The position numbers were made by a program, and so were the translations under genes. From a virus, in IMG/VR virus record IMGVR_UViG_3300044729_003567, positions 1 through 48,014 of that record: a stretch of DNA of 48,014 nucleotides. One strand, written 5' to 3'. Below are positions 7,125 to 35,928 of this stretch, in pieces. Within the stretch, counting starts at the first letter, position 1. The number at the start of each line of letters is the position of its first letter. Below the pieces are notes generated by a model that was given only the letters and a program-made list of their open reading frames with translations, was not told the origin of the DNA and searched no databases.

Positions 7125-7744
7125 TGACCACCTCCCGGCAGGAACAGCGATCGCCGGCTGACGGGCGCATAGGGCAGCAGCGCCGTCTGCAGGTGAGCCG
7201 CCTGCTGCTGGTTGAACAGCAGGCGTGGCTTCTGGCGCAGGCGCTGCTGCGGATCCTGGTCCCAGATCTCACCCTGGGCGCCGGTGAGCATGCGCAGCCA
7301 GCCGGCCACCAGCAGGGCTTCATCCTCCTGGCTGCCGACGCGCTTGAGCAGGAAGCTGCCGCTGCTCAGGGGCCTGGCGTTCTCGGCCCAGAGCCAGGCC
7401 GCGGCCCGGCCGCCCAGCAGCTCGAGCGCCGGCTGGGTGACCTGGCGGCGGCGGCGGGGGTAGAGCAGGTTGTAGATCGGCTGAAGCGCATCGCTGGTGA
7501 CCCGCAGCCGGCAGACGGTGGTGCGATTGCCGCTCTCGCGGGTGCTGGTCTGGTAGCGCCGCAGGGTAGCGGTGGTGGGGATATAGCGGCGCAGCTCGGC
7601 GGCCTTCTCATCGAGGAAATCAATTTCGCCCTCGCTACCCTCAATCACAGCTCGTATTCGGTAGCGGGTTGGCGTGCGGATGCGGTGCAAGTGCCCGTCT
7701 GCCAGGAATAGCCCGAGCAGGCCACGCGTGGCATCAGTGTCCAA
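7121..7744 (-). CDS. LAGLIDADG-fold protein, paralogue of the next gene
   Basis: 207 residues from a TTG at 7744, chosen because AGGGGG is 7 nt upstream and the -10 TACAGT (7774-7769) is 30 nt upstream. Motif 1 is GLLGLFLADGHL (8-19) with Asp16. LRVTSDALQPIYNLLYP and the following VTQPALELL match the mid-region of homing endonucleases. Motif 2 is GGRAAAWLWAENAR (111-124) with Glu121 where Asp is usual. It is adjacent to, not inside, the capsid gene, and nothing suggests an intron or intein. It may pair with the 6507-7124 product. Confidence 0.65.
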   Translation of the reverse strand: MDTDATRGLLGLFLADGHLHRIRTPTRYRIRAVIEGSEGEIDFLDEKAAELRRYIPTTATLRRYQTSTRESGNRTTVCRLRVTSDALQPIYNLLYPRRRRQVTQPALELLGGRAAAWLWAENARPLSSGSFLLKRVGSQEDEALLVAGWLRMLTGAQGEIWDQDPQQRLRQKPRLLFNQQQAAHLQTALLPYAPVSRRSLFLPGGGQ

Positions 7745-7829: not shown

Positions 7830-8978
7830 ATGTGGATCGAAAATGACTTTCCGAAGGTTCTGGGCGCCGAGCTGTATCGGCCCCACCCTGCCTACGTGGT
7901 TGAGATGGCCGTGGACCCCGTCGTGGTTCACGATTTCGCCGCTCAACCCGGGCAAACGGTGGCGCTGGATCGGTATCGCTACTGGGGTAATCCTGGCACT
8001 AAGGATTCCCGAGAGCGGACTGCTGATCAAACAATCGGCACCAGTTCTTCTCGGAACATTGTCAAGGACAAGGTTCATGTGACCTTGAAGGAATATACCG
8101 GACCCGCAGACCCTCTCAACGCGTCTGCGCCCAGTACGTTCAAAGTTGCGCGCGAGACGCTGGTCACCGCGCAGAGGCTTTTGCTCGATACTGGTTCACT
8201 TCCGGTGTTCCATCAGAGCATCGGCTCTATGACCCTGCTTGACGATTACCGCCGCTGGCGTGATCGTGTTTTCGCCGACGAGCTGTTCAAAGCCGAGGCG
8301 AATGGCAAGGCTGACTCAACCCAGGGCGGATATTACTTCCCCAAGGGCAAAGCCAAAACCAACGCAACCACGGTCGCAGCCTATGCTGCGGGCCAATCGG
8401 CCAAGTTCGGCGTCAAGGATGACCTCCTCGAGGTTGTCACCCAGATGCGCGAGCGGAACATCCCCACGTTCGCCGATGGCTACTACCGCTGCGTCGCCAG
8501 CCCTGCTGCGATGAAGCACCTGCGCCAGGACAACGACTTCCGCGAAGTGGCTCGCTACGCGGGTCAGGGGATCGTTGACCCGATGCAACCTCACCTGGCA
8601 CCTAACGCAACCTTCTACCTCGGTAACGGTCCTGCGTACGGTCAAGCCGGCTTCGTCGCTGGTCAGCCGACGATGCCAACGGGCTTCCTTTTCGAGGGAG
8701 TTCGCTGGTTCGAGTCGACCAATCTTCCCGAGAAGAGCTTCACTGCTGACATCAACAGCAATGTTGGCGGCAGTGGCAGTGCGACTTATCAAGCGGCCCC
8801 CATGCTGTTCTTCGGCATGCAGTCGGTCGGTATCGGCACTGGCGGTGAGAACGCCCAGATCTTGCTGAACAACAACGACGACTTCAGTCGGTTTATCATC
8901 ATGATCTGGTCCCTGCTGGCTGGCTTCGAGATCCTCAACAAGGATTTCGTGACGGTTGCCTACTCGTTCGTGTACTGA
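7830..8978 (+). CDS. Major capsid protein
   Basis: 382 residues. Length, lack of low-complexity sequence and the pattern of an N-terminal arm, a long middle with RERNIPTFADGYYRCVASPAA and a C-terminal block FLFEGVRWFESTNLPEKS match HK97-fold major capsid proteins of the N4-gp56-like type. It should form the icosahedral shell. GGAG lies 10 nt before the ATG. Codon use and lower GC than neighbours suggest strong expression. It shares a divergent promoter region with the LAGLIDADG-type genes and is followed at 15 bp by 8994-9635. Confidence 0.8.
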   Translation: MWIENDFPKVLGAELYRPHPAYVVEMAVDPVVVHDFAAQPGQTVALDRYRYWGNPGTKDSRERTADQTIGTSSSRNIVKDKVHVTLKEYTGPADPLNASAPSTFKVARETLVTAQRLLLDTGSLPVFHQSIGSMTLLDDYRRWRDRVFADELFKAEANGKADSTQGGYYFPKGKAKTNATTVAAYAAGQSAKFGVKDDLLEVVTQMRERNIPTFADGYYRCVASPAAMKHLRQDNDFREVARYAGQGIVDPMQPHLAPNATFYLGNGPAYGQAGFVAGQPTMPTGFLFEGVRWFESTNLPEKSFTADINSNVGGSGSATYQAAPMLFFGMQSVGIGTGGENAQILLNNNDDFSRFIIMIWSLLAGFEILNKDFVTVAYSFVY

Positions 8979-15622: not shown

Positions 15623-15934
15623 ATGGACGTCGTTCAACTGGAGCTGGACCTGGGTCTCGACGAGCCCATTGGCGTGCCCGCCGCCCCGGAGATTCCGCAC
15701 CCTTGCACGCCCGAGGGAATCGACGCGGACCGCAACCGGGTCGCCCTGCTGGACGCCCTCTATGCGGAGGACGGCCGGGGCTCGGCCGACCATCCGCTGC
15801 ACGGCACCTACACCGGCCTGTACGAGACCTTCTGCACCAAGGTCGGCCGGATCATCGTCGATCTGATCGTCGTCGACCCCGAGATCGAGATCGGCGTGAG
15901 TGGCGGTGACCTGTTCCCCTCGCTACAGCCGTGA
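15623..15934 (+). CDS. Hypothetical protein (103 aa)
   Basis: Acidic, with helical parts (NRVALLDALYAEDGR, KVGRIIVDLIVVD) and no recognised motif. It overlaps the next gene by 4 bp and the pair lies just before attP. Genes next to attP are often lysogenic-conversion or regulatory genes, but nothing in the sequence proves this. Confidence 0.5.
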   Translation: MDVVQLELDLGLDEPIGVPAAPEIPHPCTPEGIDADRNRVALLDALYAEDGRGSADHPLHGTYTGLYETFCTKVGRIIVDLIVVDPEIEIGVSGGDLFPSLQP

Positions 15935-16155
15935 GCGAGCCGCTGCGCTACCAGGAAGCGGCTGCTATGGCCCAGGCCCGGGCCCTGCTGGTGCGACTGA
16001 GCGACTTCCGCCAGACGGCGCGCATTCCGGGTCCTATCCGCGCCGAGGCCCAGGCCCTGCTGCGCTGGATGCCGACGGCTGAGCGGCTGCGGAGTGTAAC
16101 GCCATCACCCCTGGAGCGCCAGAACCGCGAAGAATCGCAACCTCAGCAAGGGTAA
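15931..16155 (+). CDS. Small BPSL0761-like protein
   Basis: 74 residues. ARALLVRLSDFRQTARIPGP followed by IRAEAQALLRWMPTAERL resembles a family of short proteins common in phages and bacterial genomes (BPSL0761 type), whose function is unknown. The match is from memory. It ends inside the first GGGTAA repeat of the attachment region. Confidence 0.5.
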   Translation: MSEPLRYQEAAAMAQARALLVRLSDFRQTARIPGPIRAEAQALLRWMPTAERLRSVTPSPLERQNREESQPQQG

Positions 16156-16168
16156 GAGAAAGGGTAAG
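16148..16168 (+). repeat. Tandem AAGGGTAAG repeats, possible left integrase arm sites
   Basis: AAGGGTAAG at 16148-16156 and again at 16160-16168, 12 bp apart, about 60-75 bp left of the attP core. GGGTAA recurs on the other side of the core. Paired direct repeats at this distance are typical arm-type binding sites of tyrosine integrases. Confidence 0.5.
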
Positions 16169-16225
16169 CCCCAGAATCAGCCCGAAAAACCCAAGCCACA
16201 GCAAGGGTTTTGGCGATTGAAAAGG

Positions 16226-16270
16226 CCCTTGGTAAGGGAGAGGTCACGAGTTCAAGTCTCGTCAAGGGCT
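16226..16270 (+). other. attP core: 3' half of a tRNA-Thr(GGU) gene
   Basis: The sequence reads as the 3' part of a tRNA-Thr: CCC of the anticodon stem (16226-16228), loop TTGGTAA with anticodon GGT (16231-16233), stem GGGAG, variable region AGGTC, T-arm ACGAG-TTCAAGT-CTCGT (16246-16262), acceptor strand CAAGGGC and discriminator T (16270). The 5' half is absent: upstream of the CCC the anticodon stem no longer pairs. A tRNA 3' end beside an integrase is the usual attachment site, letting the host tRNA be restored after insertion. Phage genes lie on both sides, so this is attP rather than attL or attR. Confidence 0.85.
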
Positions 16271-16292
16271 TCCTCAAAATCCAGCCAGGGAC

Positions 16293-16298
16293 TACCTT
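16293..16298 (+). promoter_or_regulatory. -10 element of the integrase gene
   Basis: TACCTT, 30 nt before the ATG at 16323 and 22 bp from the attP core, so recombination separates the gene from anything left of the core but keeps this promoter. Confidence 0.55.
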
Positions 16299-16322
16299 TT
16301 GCCTCCGGTCACCTGGAGGCAG

Positions 16323-17510
16323 ATGGAGGCATCTCGCGGCATTAGGGGTCAAAAAAGGGTAAATTTACCCTTGGCGGAGGGCCAGGAGGTCATCGATCTG
16401 ACCGTCGGAGCCCTGGCCGCCCGCTGCTCGGGAACCTTCGGGCGGGGGTTCCGGCTGCGGTCGGTGGGCCGGCGGCTGTACGTCCAGCTCAGCGGCCGCC
16501 GCGTGCCGCTGTACCTGGATTTCGACGCCGGTCCGGTGGACGTCCAGGAGCGGGCGCTGGCGCTGCTGCGCTTCCGCCACGACCACAAGGACCGGTTCGA
16601 CTCGGACGCCTGGCACGAGGCCTGTTTCGGGGAGGGGGTAAGAACGGGTAAAAGGTCGGGCCGCAAGGGCAAGAGCGAAAAGCACCGGCTGAACGTGAAT
16701 GAGGTGGCGGCGATCTGGCAACGGTTCAAGCGGGCCCAGGGAGTGTCGGACGCCACGATCGAGCGGCACTACTTCAGCCACCTGCGCCGACTGGACCCGG
16801 AGCAGCCGCTGAGCGACAGCTCACTGCTGCAGGCCATCGAGCAGACGAGTCCCAGGAGTCCCAGCAGAAGACGCGCTGTGGCTTTTCTGCGGCAGCTGTG
16901 TGAGCTGTGCGGACAACCCTGGAACAGCGCCCTGCTGGATCCCCTGCAGAACGCCGGCATGGCGGTGGAGCACAGGCCCCAGGCGTTCTTCTCGGACGAT
17001 GAGATCAAGAAGATCACCAGCGGCGGCCTGAGTGCCCCCTGGCAGCGGATCGTGGTGCTGCTGGCGGTCTATGGCCTGCGACCCTGGGAGGCCTGGGTGG
17101 CTGAGCCCTCAAAGGATCGCCCGGACTGCATTTGGATTCCGGCCGGGAAGACCAACCGCCATGGCACCACGCCGCCGCGTCAGGTGCCGCCGTTTCACCC
17201 GGAATGGGTGGAGGAGTTCCGGCTGCCCCAGCTCTGGGCCAAGCCGCTGCCATCCCTGAGCAGCAAGTCCCAGGCCGGCGCCCGGGTGAACCAGCACCTG
17301 CGCCGCCATGGCCTGATCGGCGGGGAGGGGCAGACGTCCTACGGGTTCCGGCATGCCTACGCCCGGCGACTGCATTCGCCCCGCTACCGGGTGACCGATG
17401 CCCACGCCTCACTGTTCATGGGACACACCGTGGCGGCCCACCACAAGGCTTACCGCAGTTGGCTGGGAGGAGAGGATCCTATTGGGATCTACCTCGGCAG
17501 CCCTGGCTAA
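16323..17510 (+). CDS. int: Tyrosine-recombinase integrase
   Basis: 395 residues; catalyses site-specific recombination between attP and the host tRNA-Thr attachment site. The N-terminal 100 residues should bind arm sites, 120-205 the core (SAM-like domain). The catalytic domain has Arg253 (YGLRPWEAW), Arg343 (SYGFRHAYARRL), His368 (FMGHT) and Tyr377 (HHKAYRSW). The His usual three residues before the second Arg is Tyr340, a tolerated-looking change. I chose the ATG at 16323 because GGAGG is just upstream and the -10 is at the standard distance; the frame also allows a TTG at 16299. Confidence 0.9.
   Translation: MEASRGIRGQKRVNLPLAEGQEVIDLTVGALAARCSGTFGRGFRLRSVGRRLYVQLSGRRVPLYLDFDAGPVDVQERALALLRFRHDHKDRFDSDAWHEACFGEGVRTGKRSGRKGKSEKHRLNVNEVAAIWQRFKRAQGVSDATIERHYFSHLRRLDPEQPLSDSSLLQAIEQTSPRSPSRRRAVAFLRQLCELCGQPWNSALLDPLQNAGMAVEHRPQAFFSDDEIKKITSGGLSAPWQRIVVLLAVYGLRPWEAWVAEPSKDRPDCIWIPAGKTNRHGTTPPRQVPPFHPEWVEEFRLPQLWAKPLPSLSSKSQAGARVNQHLRRHGLIGGEGQTSYGFRHAYARRLHSPRYRVTDAHASLFMGHTVAAHHKAYRSWLGGEDPIGIYLGSPG
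16355..16372. repeat. Perfect 18-bp palindrome AAGGGTAAATTTACCCTT
   Basis: Two head-to-head copies of the GGGTAA motif found left of the core, lying within codons 11-17 of the integrase gene, about 85 bp right of the attP core. Further GGGTAA copies are at 16636 and 16646. Candidate right-arm integrase sites or an autoregulatory operator. Confidence 0.5.
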
Positions 17511-17827: not shown

Positions 17828-18607
17828 ATGCAATTCAAGTTCAACCCCTTCACCGGGACTTTGGATGCAGCTGGCGGCGATGCAACCACTTCGCTGTTGA
17901 ACCTGCTGGGGACAGTTGCCAATCAGGCGGCGCTGCCGAGCAGCGGCAACACCATCGGCGACGTTTGGCAGGCGGAGGATACCGGCGAGTTCTTCGTCTG
18001 GGACGGGACCGAGTGGGATGGGCTTGGAGATCTTGCTGGCCCTCAAGGCCCCCAGGGCCCTGCTGGGCCCCAGGGGCCGCAAGGGCCTGCAGGCCCAGCC
18101 GGGACGACTGGGGCGACCGGGCCGGCTGGCCCTCAAGGACCCCAGGGCCCTGCTGGCGCCGACGCCACCTACAGCGACACAGCTCCCCAACCACTGGCCC
18201 AAGCGGCGAGCGCTGGAACTGACAACGCTGCTGCCCGCGCCAACCACCGCCATCAACGCGACACGGATCTGCTGGTGGTCAACCTGAGCGGCAGCCAGAG
18301 CGATCCGACTGCAGCGAACGGGATTGAAACTTTCACGTTCCAGTGGCCTGCGCAGATCCTGGCGTCGGCGCTCAGTGCGGAGACTGCAGCATCAGGATCG
18401 GCGTTTCAGGTCAACGCCCGACTGAACGCCAGCTCGATCTACAGCGTCCGCCCACAGATTGCGGTGGGGAGCACTACGGGCAGCAGCGGCACGCTGGCGA
18501 TCACGACAGCAGCAGCTGGCGACGTTCTGCGATTCGACATCTCGCAGGCCGGGGGCGGGTGCCGACTGGCCAAGCTGTACCTCACCGTGCGGAGGAACGA
18601 CGCATGA
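17828..18607 (+). CDS. Collagen-like tail fibre protein
   Basis: 259 residues. After an N-terminal domain (TIGDVWQAEDTGEFFVWDG, a known fibre motif), residues about 69-114 are Gly-X-Y repeats rich in Pro and Gln (GPQGPAGPQGPQ), which form a collagen-type triple-helical stalk. The C-terminal 120 residues look like a beta-rich trimeric tip. Overlaps the next gene by 4 bp. Role: stalked host-receptor binding or adhesion. Confidence 0.85.
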   Translation: MQFKFNPFTGTLDAAGGDATTSLLNLLGTVANQAALPSSGNTIGDVWQAEDTGEFFVWDGTEWDGLGDLAGPQGPQGPAGPQGPQGPAGPAGTTGATGPAGPQGPQGPAGADATYSDTAPQPLAQAASAGTDNAAARANHRHQRDTDLLVVNLSGSQSDPTAANGIETFTFQWPAQILASALSAETAASGSAFQVNARLNASSIYSVRPQIAVGSTTGSSGTLAITTAAAGDVLRFDISQAGGGCRLAKLYLTVRRNDA

Positions 18608-22002: not shown

Positions 22003-22153
22003 GACCGACGAAGAGATGATCGCGACATTCGGGCACATGCCCAGCAACGAGGAGCTGGCGGCCTACGTCGGCGAACGTGCTGAGGCCTGCCAGGAAGCCG
22101 CCAGAATGGATGTCGACATCGAAGCCATTGCGCTCGGGATGGAGGAATCGTGA
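21797..22153 (+). CDS. NblA-like phycobilisome-degradation protein with C-terminal extension
   Basis: 118 residues from the ATG at 21797 (GGAGG 6 nt upstream). Residues 4-54 (LSLEQQFQLRQLRGEIEDLS, then ELIALVIDERRDYLLQGNYL) follow the NblA/Ycf18 pattern: an N-terminal LxLEQ-F-LR helix, a short break and a second helix ending in N-x-[IL]-R. NblA links phycobilisomes to the Clp protease so that antenna pigments are degraded; some freshwater cyanophages carry it. Here an acidic extension (55-118) doubles the usual 55-65 residues. Recognition is from pattern only. Overlaps the HNH frame and, by 4 bp, the lysin. Confidence 0.5.
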   Translation: MMLDLSLEQQFQLRQLRGEIEDLSRAELIALVIDERRDYLLQGNYLRSVMVEAGMEVEEPMDIYLALPETDEEMIATFGHMPSNEELAAYVGERAEACQEAARMDVDIEAIALGMEES

Positions 22154-23457
22154 TCAGCCCGAACGCCAGAGCCCTGCTGGACACGATCAGGCTTGCAGAG
22201 GGCACAAGCGGACCCCAGGGCTACAACACGATGTTCACGGGCAAGACGTTCAGCGATCTGTCCAGGCATCCAAACCAGGTCAACCGAGGGGGCGGCTACG
22301 CTTCGGCGGCGGCAGGTGCATACCAGTTTCTCCCGGCTACCTGGGAAGGGGCCGCCAAGGAGTTAGGGCTCAAGGATTTCTCGCCCGCCAATCAGGACTT
22401 AGCTGCCCTGCAGCTGATTCGCCGTCGCGGGGTTGACCCTGACAAGCCCTTGACTCGCGAGACCCTGGCCAAGCTGGCGCCGGAATGGGCCTCTTTGCCG
22501 ACGATGCAGGGAGCGAGCTACTACGGTCAGCCGGTCAAGGCAGCAGACAAGCTGCTGTCTCATTACCAGAGCCGCCTGGGAGGGAACGGCGCACCGATGG
22601 CGCCTTTTGCGCCTTCGGCAACAGCAGCTTCAAGCCCTGCGCCAACCCGGGCTGGCTCGCCTCTGGAGGCCGTGGCTGCTGGGATCCTCGGCGGCGCGAG
22701 CGGGACGGGAGGCTTTCGCATGGCCGCCCCATTCGCCATGGCCCCCAAGATCACCCCCGCGGGAGCCAGCGGTCCCGCAGGGGTGGCGGGGGCGATCCTG
22801 GACAACAGCTTCGCTGGGGCGGTGGGCAAGCAGCGCATGGCTGCCAGCAGCGCCCTGCTGCCCGGCCTGTTCAAGGCCGCTACCGGTGTATCGATTGAGG
22901 ACCTTGGACCCCTGGTGGCCGCTAGAGGCCAATTGCCTGGCTCTCAGGCGATCCCTGATTTCGATGTGCCTGTGCCGCAGTTCAATGCGCCACAGGCGGG
23001 CATGCCAGCAGACGCGTCGAGCGGACTGCGAATGGGGCGCCTCGGTGGTGCAACGACCAATCGCACCAGGGATCCCGATGCTGAGCAGAGCGGCTACGAC
23101 CTCGTCAAGCCGGGCGGAGTGGGAGCGCCGATCGTGGCGCCAGTGGACCTGGAGATCACCGGCAAGGGATTCCAGGGGCAGGGCAGCGGGGAGTCGGGGC
23201 GCGGCTACGGCAACTGGCTGAGCGGCAAGTTCACAGGGGCAGACGGCAAGCCCTACGAGCTCCTTCTTGGGCATCTCAATGACTACAGCGTCAAGCCAGG
23301 CATGAAGGTCCCCCGCGGCACCGTTCTCGGTAGCCAGGGTGTAACCGGACGGGCGTTTGGTGCGCACGTCACGACTCACGTCAATGCTCTGTCAGGTGGT
23401 AATCCCTGGCAGGAGCTGGATCGCCTCACGAATATGTGGACGGCACCAGCTGGCTAG
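22150..23457 (+). CDS. GH104 lysozyme fused to an M23-like peptidase domain
   Basis: 435 residues from a GTG coupled to the previous stop. Residues 5-95 match phage lysozymes of the lambda R / GH104 type: LAEGTS with Glu17, the GYNTMFTG segment and the ASAAAGAYQFLPATW block. A long Ala/Pro/Gly linker follows. Residues about 315-430 resemble a LytM/M23 domain (PIVAPVDLEITGKG, LLGHLNDYSVKPG, GAHVTTHVN), whose metal ligands look altered. It could be the main late lysin or a particle-borne wall-opening enzyme. Confidence 0.7.
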   Translation: MISPNARALLDTIRLAEGTSGPQGYNTMFTGKTFSDLSRHPNQVNRGGGYASAAAGAYQFLPATWEGAAKELGLKDFSPANQDLAALQLIRRRGVDPDKPLTRETLAKLAPEWASLPTMQGASYYGQPVKAADKLLSHYQSRLGGNGAPMAPFAPSATAASSPAPTRAGSPLEAVAAGILGGASGTGGFRMAAPFAMAPKITPAGASGPAGVAGAILDNSFAGAVGKQRMAASSALLPGLFKAATGVSIEDLGPLVAARGQLPGSQAIPDFDVPVPQFNAPQAGMPADASSGLRMGRLGGATTNRTRDPDAEQSGYDLVKPGGVGAPIVAPVDLEITGKGFQGQGSGESGRGYGNWLSGKFTGADGKPYELLLGHLNDYSVKPGMKVPRGTVLGSQGVTGRAFGAHVTTHVNALSGGNPWQELDRLTNMWTAPAG

Positions 23458-35071: not shown

Positions 35072-35268
35072 GCAGAGGTGCTTGCTGTGGCAGGCGGCCA
35101 GTCTGCCGCGAGTTGCAGCAGATTGCCAGCTATTAAGTCGCATGAAGGGGGAAAGTGTTTATCAGGGCTGGCAACTAGGTTTAGGTTCCGGTCGTCAGTT
35201 ACCAGGGCTGGCAGCGGCGGTCGGCCGTGGCCGTTGCATTTAACCCAATTGTTTGGCAGCATGAGCCC
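35072..35268. promoter_or_regulatory. Divergent control region between regulator and repressor
   Basis: CAGGGCTGGCA occurs at 35163-35173 and 35203-35213, exactly 40 bp apart, and TTGCCAGC at 35123-35130 is the inverse of GCTGGCAA at 35168. The two genes facing away from it both encode HTH proteins, the arrangement of a lysogeny switch. Weak -10 candidates are CAGACT for the left gene and TAACCC (35241) for the right one. Confidence 0.5.
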
Positions 35269-35928
35269 ATGTCCCCACTCACAAAAACGAAAGCCAAGGT
35301 GTCCGCCTCAGAGGCGGATTCCGAGCGGCTGGTGCGCTTCGCCAAGGCGTTGCGCCAGGCGATGATCGTCAATGAGATCAGCGAGCGCCGCATGGCAGCC
35401 ATGCTAGGCATCACCAGCGGCACCACGCAGAAGTACTTCCGCGGCGAGGTCGACCCCCTGAAGGTGGGCACGGGCGTGAACCGCGGGCTGGCCCGGCTGC
35501 TGGGTGTGAGCCTGGATCAGCTGGTGGATTACTACGAGACGGGCAGCTACGCCAAGGAGATGGACGCGGGGCTCAGCTTTGAGAAGGTGGCCAGCTGGAT
35601 GCAGTCCAGCGATGGCATTGAGCACATCGGCAGCATCCTGCAGGCCGCGGCCAAGGTGTGTCAGCGGGGTGCCGTGGCAGACCTATCGGCCGCTGCCCCT
35701 GCTGCTCCACTGAAGCCGTTCACCTGGCCGCTTGAGGAACTCAAGAGCGCCGGGGTGTCGGAGGCCCTGCAGGAGCGCATGGGCCTGACAGTAGAGGCAT
35801 TGCGGGCCCTGGTCGAAGACGGGCAGTTCGACGAGGAGCTGGTGGAGGCGTTCAGCGTGGCCACCAACCTGGACCCGAAGGAGGTGCACAAGGCCTTCAA
35901 GGGGCGGAAAGCCATACCGCAGGAGTGA
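35269..35928 (+). CDS. Cro/CI-type repressor candidate
   Basis: 219 residues from the ATG at 35269. After a short basic arm, residues 19-85 form an XRE-like HTH domain: ISERRMAAMLGITSGTTQKY (37-56) with a following TGVNRGLARLLGVSLDQL helix. The C-terminal 120 residues are helical with no LexA-type Ser/Lys protease motif, so induction would not be by RecA self-cleavage of the classic kind. As the only XRE-type protein here it is the best lysogeny repressor candidate. Its weak promoter fits tight control. Confidence 0.65.
   Translation: MSPLTKTKAKVSASEADSERLVRFAKALRQAMIVNEISERRMAAMLGITSGTTQKYFRGEVDPLKVGTGVNRGLARLLGVSLDQLVDYYETGSYAKEMDAGLSFEKVASWMQSSDGIEHIGSILQAAAKVCQRGAVADLSAAAPAAPLKPFTWPLEELKSAGVSEALQERMGLTVEALRALVEDGQFDEELVEAFSVATNLDPKEVHKAFKGRKAIPQE

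Follow-up and report, generated by a model that had tools for sequence, protein, structure and literature searches.

A probable attachment site made of the 3′ part of tRNA-Thr(GGU) in an S-EIV1-like cyanophage

Attachment sites derived from transfer RNA (tRNA) genes are already known, also in cyanophages. The picocyanobacterial phages P-SSP7 and S-TIP37 encode a tyrosine integrase and carry, on the free genome and downstream of int, a phage attachment site (attP) of about 40 bp identical to part of a host tRNA, namely the first half of tRNA-Leu (PMC8776855). Integration of such T7-like cyanophages requires int and attP but does not lead to stable lysogens (PMC8776855). According to the portions of the respective reports consulted here, the cyanosiphoviruses S-LBS1 and P-SS2 likewise bear integrases with proposed attachment sites, which are 14-bp motifs in the former and a 53-bp non-coding match in the latter, and an integrated copy with its two junctions is not mentioned in these portions (PMC6157547, PMC2784084). 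The locus described here, positions 16226–16270 of a virus sequence of 48,014 bases (IMG/VR record IMGVR_UViG_3300044729_003567; hereafter the window), is very probably the attP of a free, integration-competent cyanophage of the lineage around Synechococcus phage S-EIV1, which would target the tRNA-Thr(GGU) gene of its host. It differs from the sites of P-SSP7 and S-TIP37 in belonging to another phage lineage, in deriving from the 3′ half of tRNA-Thr and in lying upstream of int; furthermore, in the present case an insertion into a host chromosome by a near-identical integrase was found. With lambda-type sites it has in common a core flanked by P and P′ arms, an adjoining int and a tRNA gene that would be restored on insertion, but the coding sequence of int contains four of its six putative arm sites. 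The tRNA-Thr site, the phage lineage, the arm architecture and a defence island with the same module are new; a literature search, with subscription journals mostly outside its scope, gave no description of a tRNA-Thr site for picocyanobacterial phages and none for the S-EIV1-like lineage.

The window is a linear sequence with a G+C content of 64.6% from a lake cyanophage, in which ARAGORN calls no tRNA and neither transfer-messenger RNA genes nor Rfam families were found. The 45-mer CCCTTGGTAAGGGAGAGGTCACGAGTTCAAGTCTCGTCAAGGGCT occurs in it only once, and comprises the anticodon loop TTGGTAA (anticodon GGU), the variable region, a T-arm with a perfect stem (ACGAG-TTCAAGT-CTCGT) and the 3′ strand of the acceptor stem, while the 5′ half of the tRNA is missing. 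When 84,980 genomes were scanned for exact matches, with host taxonomy taken from the record titles, this 45-mer was found at 88 loci, all picocyanobacterial, and 87 of its 89 copies belong to complete tRNA-Thr(GGT) genes, the 3′ ends of which are thus identical to the core over all 45 bp. With BLAST E-values of about 1e-17 to 1e-21 the exact match is not a chance event, and in some hosts the identity extends to 54 bp, into TTCCTCAAAA. The initial annotation, made from the letters alone, had proposed an attP formed from the 3′ half of tRNA-Thr(GGU) and had named the lack of a host tRNA-Thr with this segment as grounds for giving the proposal up; the host loci bear the proposal out. An attP identical to that of the window is present in two contigs from two other metagenomes (L090 and L092). 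Related sites in L129, G407 and G408 retain GCGATTGA of the P arm and match the core exactly over 44–45 bp, although their integrases are only 62–73% identical. In one further contig (L079, RGNC01000029.1) the core, at 7698–7742, is joined straight to the 3′ end of a tRNA-Tyr as though the 5′ half of tRNA-Thr had been deleted, which may be an assembly error in this metagenome-assembled genome (MAG).

The core is surrounded by six copies of GGGTAA (Table 1), a putative arm-binding sequence of the integrase. Six of the 11 copies in the window fall within 502 bp (16150–16651; binomial probability 6e-10 for that stretch), and P′1 and P′2 together make the palindrome GGGTAAATTTACCC. The window shares its spacing of 12/195/8/271/10 to the base with L150, L151, L152 and L154; L153 and L155–L160, where integrase identity goes down to 55–56%, deviate from it only slightly, so that the fixed geometry spans integrases from 55 to 99% identical. 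Within the gene, the arm-site codons CAA, AAA and GTA (twice) are identical across six integrases, whereas as background a single codon is used throughout at only 18 of the 132 invariant degenerate residues of the same six proteins. In L155–L158 and L160 (at about 2890–2925; 56% integrases) the six arm sites are kept and the tRNA-Thr core is not. Some of these contigs have the core CCCCCCTGATAGAGGGGG, and in others its middle is inverted (TCTATCA), as though the overlap region had been flipped; for cores of the L155/L159 type, weak single matches were all that a search for their host site gave.

Table 1. Features of the window around the attachment site and elsewhere, with coordinates in the window.
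Feature	Coordinates	Strand	Remarks
Major capsid protein	7830–8978	+	PHROG_1357 major head protein, E=2e-19
Small open reading frame (ORF) directly upstream of attP, 74 residues, BPSL0761-like	15931–16155	+	NCBIfam NF041728, E=5e-6, below its cut-off
Putative arm site P1, GGGTAA	16150–16155	+	173 bp before int start; position base-exact in relatives
Putative arm site P2, GGGTAA	16162–16167	+	161 bp before int start; position base-exact in relatives
P arm adjoining core, CAAGGGTTTTGGCGATTGAAAAGG	16202–16225	+	Retained beside attR in G071
attP core, 3′ part of tRNA-Thr(GGU), anticodon-stem 5′ strand to acceptor 3′ strand	16226–16270	+	Exact host matches
int, divergent tyrosine recombinase, 395 residues	16323–17510	+	PHROG_1 integrase, E=2.2e-12
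Putative arm site P′1, GGGTAA	16357–16362	+	Inside int; +34 from int start
Putative arm site P′2, inverted GGGTAA	16365–16370	-	Inside int; +42
Putative arm site P′3, GGGTAA	16636–16641	+	Inside int, codons for V-R-T-G-K; +313
Putative arm site P′4, GGGTAA	16646–16651	+	Inside int; +323
Tail fibre	17828–18607		Right of attP
Endolysin	22150–23457		Right of attP
Candidate regulator with helix-turn-helix (HTH) segments, possible lysogeny repressor	35227–35928	+	PHROG_2328, E=4.5e-5

A more distant integrase (G312, 48–51% identity), likewise encoded behind a tRNA-Thr(GGT) gene, is accompanied by a different repeat, CGGGAACC, as would be expected if arm sites and integrase co-evolve. The same repeat is seen in a Synechococcus MAG (L017, CAMCQR010000108.1) with cores at 2601–2645 and 7296–7340; the 4.7-kb stretch there, with a complete tRNA-Thr at one end and a partial core copy at the other, is probably a decayed element, since an integrase was not found inside. 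A relative with 41% identity is located directly behind a tRNA-Thr(TGT) gene (G078:C60, L106:10917–12227), which suggests that the whole integrase family targets tRNA-Thr genes. On the other side of the site, relatives retain the small ORF upstream of attP, at 55% identity in L125 as in L128. The ORF ends with the TAA of arm site P1 as its stop codon and could encode an excision factor.

The int gene starts with an ATG 53 bases past the core, as the initial annotation had it, and a start codon (ATG or GTG) stands at an equal offset in all close relatives read. The TTG at 16299 chosen by the ORF finder was rejected as the start, the first in-frame start after the core of L129 being a GTG at offset 52. 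Arg253, Lys276, Tyr340-x-x-Arg343, His368 and Tyr377 are invariant in five aligned members and can be read from the alignment as the catalytic set of a tyrosine recombinase, R-K-(H/Y)xxR-(H/W)-Y.

An integrated form is seen in the picocyanobacterial chromosome G071, a contig of 3.67 Mb, in which an int gene with 93.6% DNA identity directly follows an intact tRNA-Thr(GGT). A second core copy, preceded by the P arm of the window (16202–16271 at 98.6%), is located 28,030 bp away. As judged by sequence, the two copies are the attL and attR junctions; both share CCCTTGG...GGGCTT, and the exchange is therefore bounded to 16226–16271. The host gene behind attR follows tRNA-Thr within 0.1–7 kb in 44 other loci, in about half of them within 0.5 kb. 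The element enclosed by the junctions contains type I restriction genes (hsdM being interrupted by a transposase), a DUF1016 nuclease, DUF4268 and GGDEF/EAL genes and a further gene that reads as a metal ATPase. With the window it shares int, the attachment site and a 220-bp stretch and nothing else, and it is a cargo island of restriction/defence genes rather than a phage. An attL/attR pair is thus present for an element with a near-identical integrase and not for the genome of the window phage itself. The insertion shows that the docking site works, and that an integration module is common to phage and defence island. It agrees with the insertion site named by the initial annotation; the pair of junctions expected beside a tRNA-Thr does exist, but it encloses the cargo island and not a prophage of this phage.

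Taken together, core identity, arm geometry, catalytic residues and the junction pair in G071 support well the capacity to integrate and its target. In the proposed mechanism the tyrosine integrase would bind the GGGTAA sites on either side of the core and bring the latter to the host tRNA-Thr(GGU) gene. The strands would be exchanged inside the 45-bp segment of identity; the likeliest place is the anticodon loop TTGGTAA (16229–16235), which CCC and GGG enclose. In the inserted state the 5′ half from the host would continue into the 3′ half brought by the phage, so that the tRNA would stay intact and be followed directly by int (attL); a copy of the 3′ half would mark the far end of the inserted DNA (attR). 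By extension from these features, the window phage itself would integrate in this manner and could persist as a prophage.

Other origins of the segment have to be weighed. An origin as one end (attL or attR) of an integrated prophage, or as host sequence at the border of a contig, is very improbable: apart from the tRNA identity itself nothing speaks for it. One unbroken core, lacking the tRNA 5′ half, stands between both arms, phage genes extend for kilobases to the left and to the right, and two further contigs as well as a circular relative show the identical arrangement. The free-phage form read by the initial annotation is thereby supported. Phages are known to carry pieces of tRNA for varied reasons, and a chance or decoy copy unrelated to integration, such as a tRNA-derived regulatory or anti-defence RNA, might look alike; hardly any credence can be given to it here, where the fragment is located 53 bp from int among conserved arm sites and where attL and attR of G071 formed at exactly the core sequence. 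It is also conceivable, if unlikely, that the module is native to host islands hopping between tRNA-Thr genes and was picked up by the phage, perhaps recently, without being used. The island in G071 indeed carries a near-identical module and has almost nothing else in common with the phage. Against this, several diverged phage lineages, the 84-kb G407 among them, carry the module at an equivalent position and preceded by the same small ORF, and such long-term conservation in phages argues for its use there.

The interpretation as the attP of an integration-competent phage also has to face several results that weigh against it. Among profiles the integrase is matched by PHROG_1 alone, Pfam and NCBIfam being empty, so that its homology is based on this match and the motif alignment; a sequence search of the PDB with the integrase profile was empty as well, and the structure model, with a mean predicted local distance difference test (pLDDT) score of 51, is of low confidence and was not used for a fold search. 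A scan of 15900–16700 for a sigma-70 promoter gave none for int, contrary to the promoter of its own that the initial annotation had assigned to the gene. The element in G071 contains no recognised phage genes. The capsid gene of the lineage was not found in the 400 host-family genomes searched, an incomplete sample, and the same query does recover relatives in phage records. Finally, the candidate regulator shows only weak likeness to a repressor, with sub-threshold matches to HTH_31, HTH_3 and RstR.

Most of the remaining doubt concerns what follows integration. The phage may integrate at tRNA-Thr transiently within an essentially lytic cycle and form no stable lysogens, like the T7-like cyanophages; this is a substantial possibility, if not the one we favour, and both the lack of a prophage of the lineage in the 400 genomes and the weak repressor candidate are in line with it. 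It is opposed by the full arm architecture, which is kept across large divergence, by the persistent insertion that the same integrase left in G071, and by an HTH-type gene kept in the window phage, G407 and G408 (57–58% identity in the latter two) and without a match in S-EIV1. This gene is a possible, weak candidate for a lysogeny repressor; its structure model (mean pLDDT 41) is uninformative and was not used for a fold search. Classical lysogeny of the window phage goes beyond the evidence for integration, with no dormant prophage found among the 400 genomes. The statement of the initial annotation that the site makes the phage temperate is too strong, given T7-like cyanophages that integrate without stable lysogens (PMC8776855), the failure to find a virion-bearing prophage and the weak repressor candidate.

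The phage is placed in the lineage around S-EIV1 by the sequence of its capsid protein, which is 64% identical to that of S-EIV1 (KJ410740) at 100% coverage. Its relative G407, a contig of 83,980 bp, is probably complete (circular) because its ends overlap by 123 bp; gene content is alike, the attP is held in common, and identities to the window are 83–84% for the capsid and 62% for int. From the size of G407 the window is a fragment of roughly 57% of such a genome. A terminase (large subunit in G407) with 51% identity to that of S-EIV1 is encoded in G407 and G408 but not in the 48-kb window; the S-EIV1 genome (79 kb) is similar in size to the 84 kb of G407. In contrast, integrase, repressor candidate and core of the window have no match in S-EIV1. 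Among GenBank phages, only a 42-bp DNA match was found for window positions 1–24000 and none for the integrase, and a tblastn search of 50,697 phage records with the integrase gave no match. To the right of attP, dCTP deaminase and HNH genes accompany the tail fibre and endolysin genes; capsid and further phage genes are located to the left.

The capsid gene of G416 and G417 (L171:219–2477 and L172; also G415 and G419) is split after about residue 90 by an insert of about 1 kb, which shows a weak match to a group I intron (RF00028, E 1.5e-4, below the gathering score) and encodes a 252-residue ORF resembling a homing endonuclease.

A second phage type, with a T7-like RNA polymerase and an unrelated integrase, is found at the same tRNA cluster (G404, L142–L144; G405, L145–L147; G406, L148–L149; also L119, L120, L122, L127 and L130). 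Its attachment site consists of the 3′ half of tRNA-Tyr(GTA) and the whole tRNA-Thr(GGT). G404 is probably circular, with a 123-bp end overlap, and G405 looks like an integrated copy: a complete tRNA-Tyr with adjoining host sequence stands at one of its ends, and the opposite end carries a second, partial copy.

Tentatively, and with considerable doubt, a module of int and attachment site with six arm sites, partly within the gene, might be common to S-EIV1-like phages and host defence islands, both competing for the tRNA-Thr(GGU) docking site in freshwater picocyanobacteria, where the resident island carries anti-phage restriction genes. Marine picocyanobacterial isolates are reported to lack intact prophages, and no lysogens were obtained from those int-bearing T7-like cyanophages that have been tested. 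For the S-EIV1-like lineage, the site described here provides a concrete docking site in picocyanobacteria that can be tested by polymerase chain reaction.
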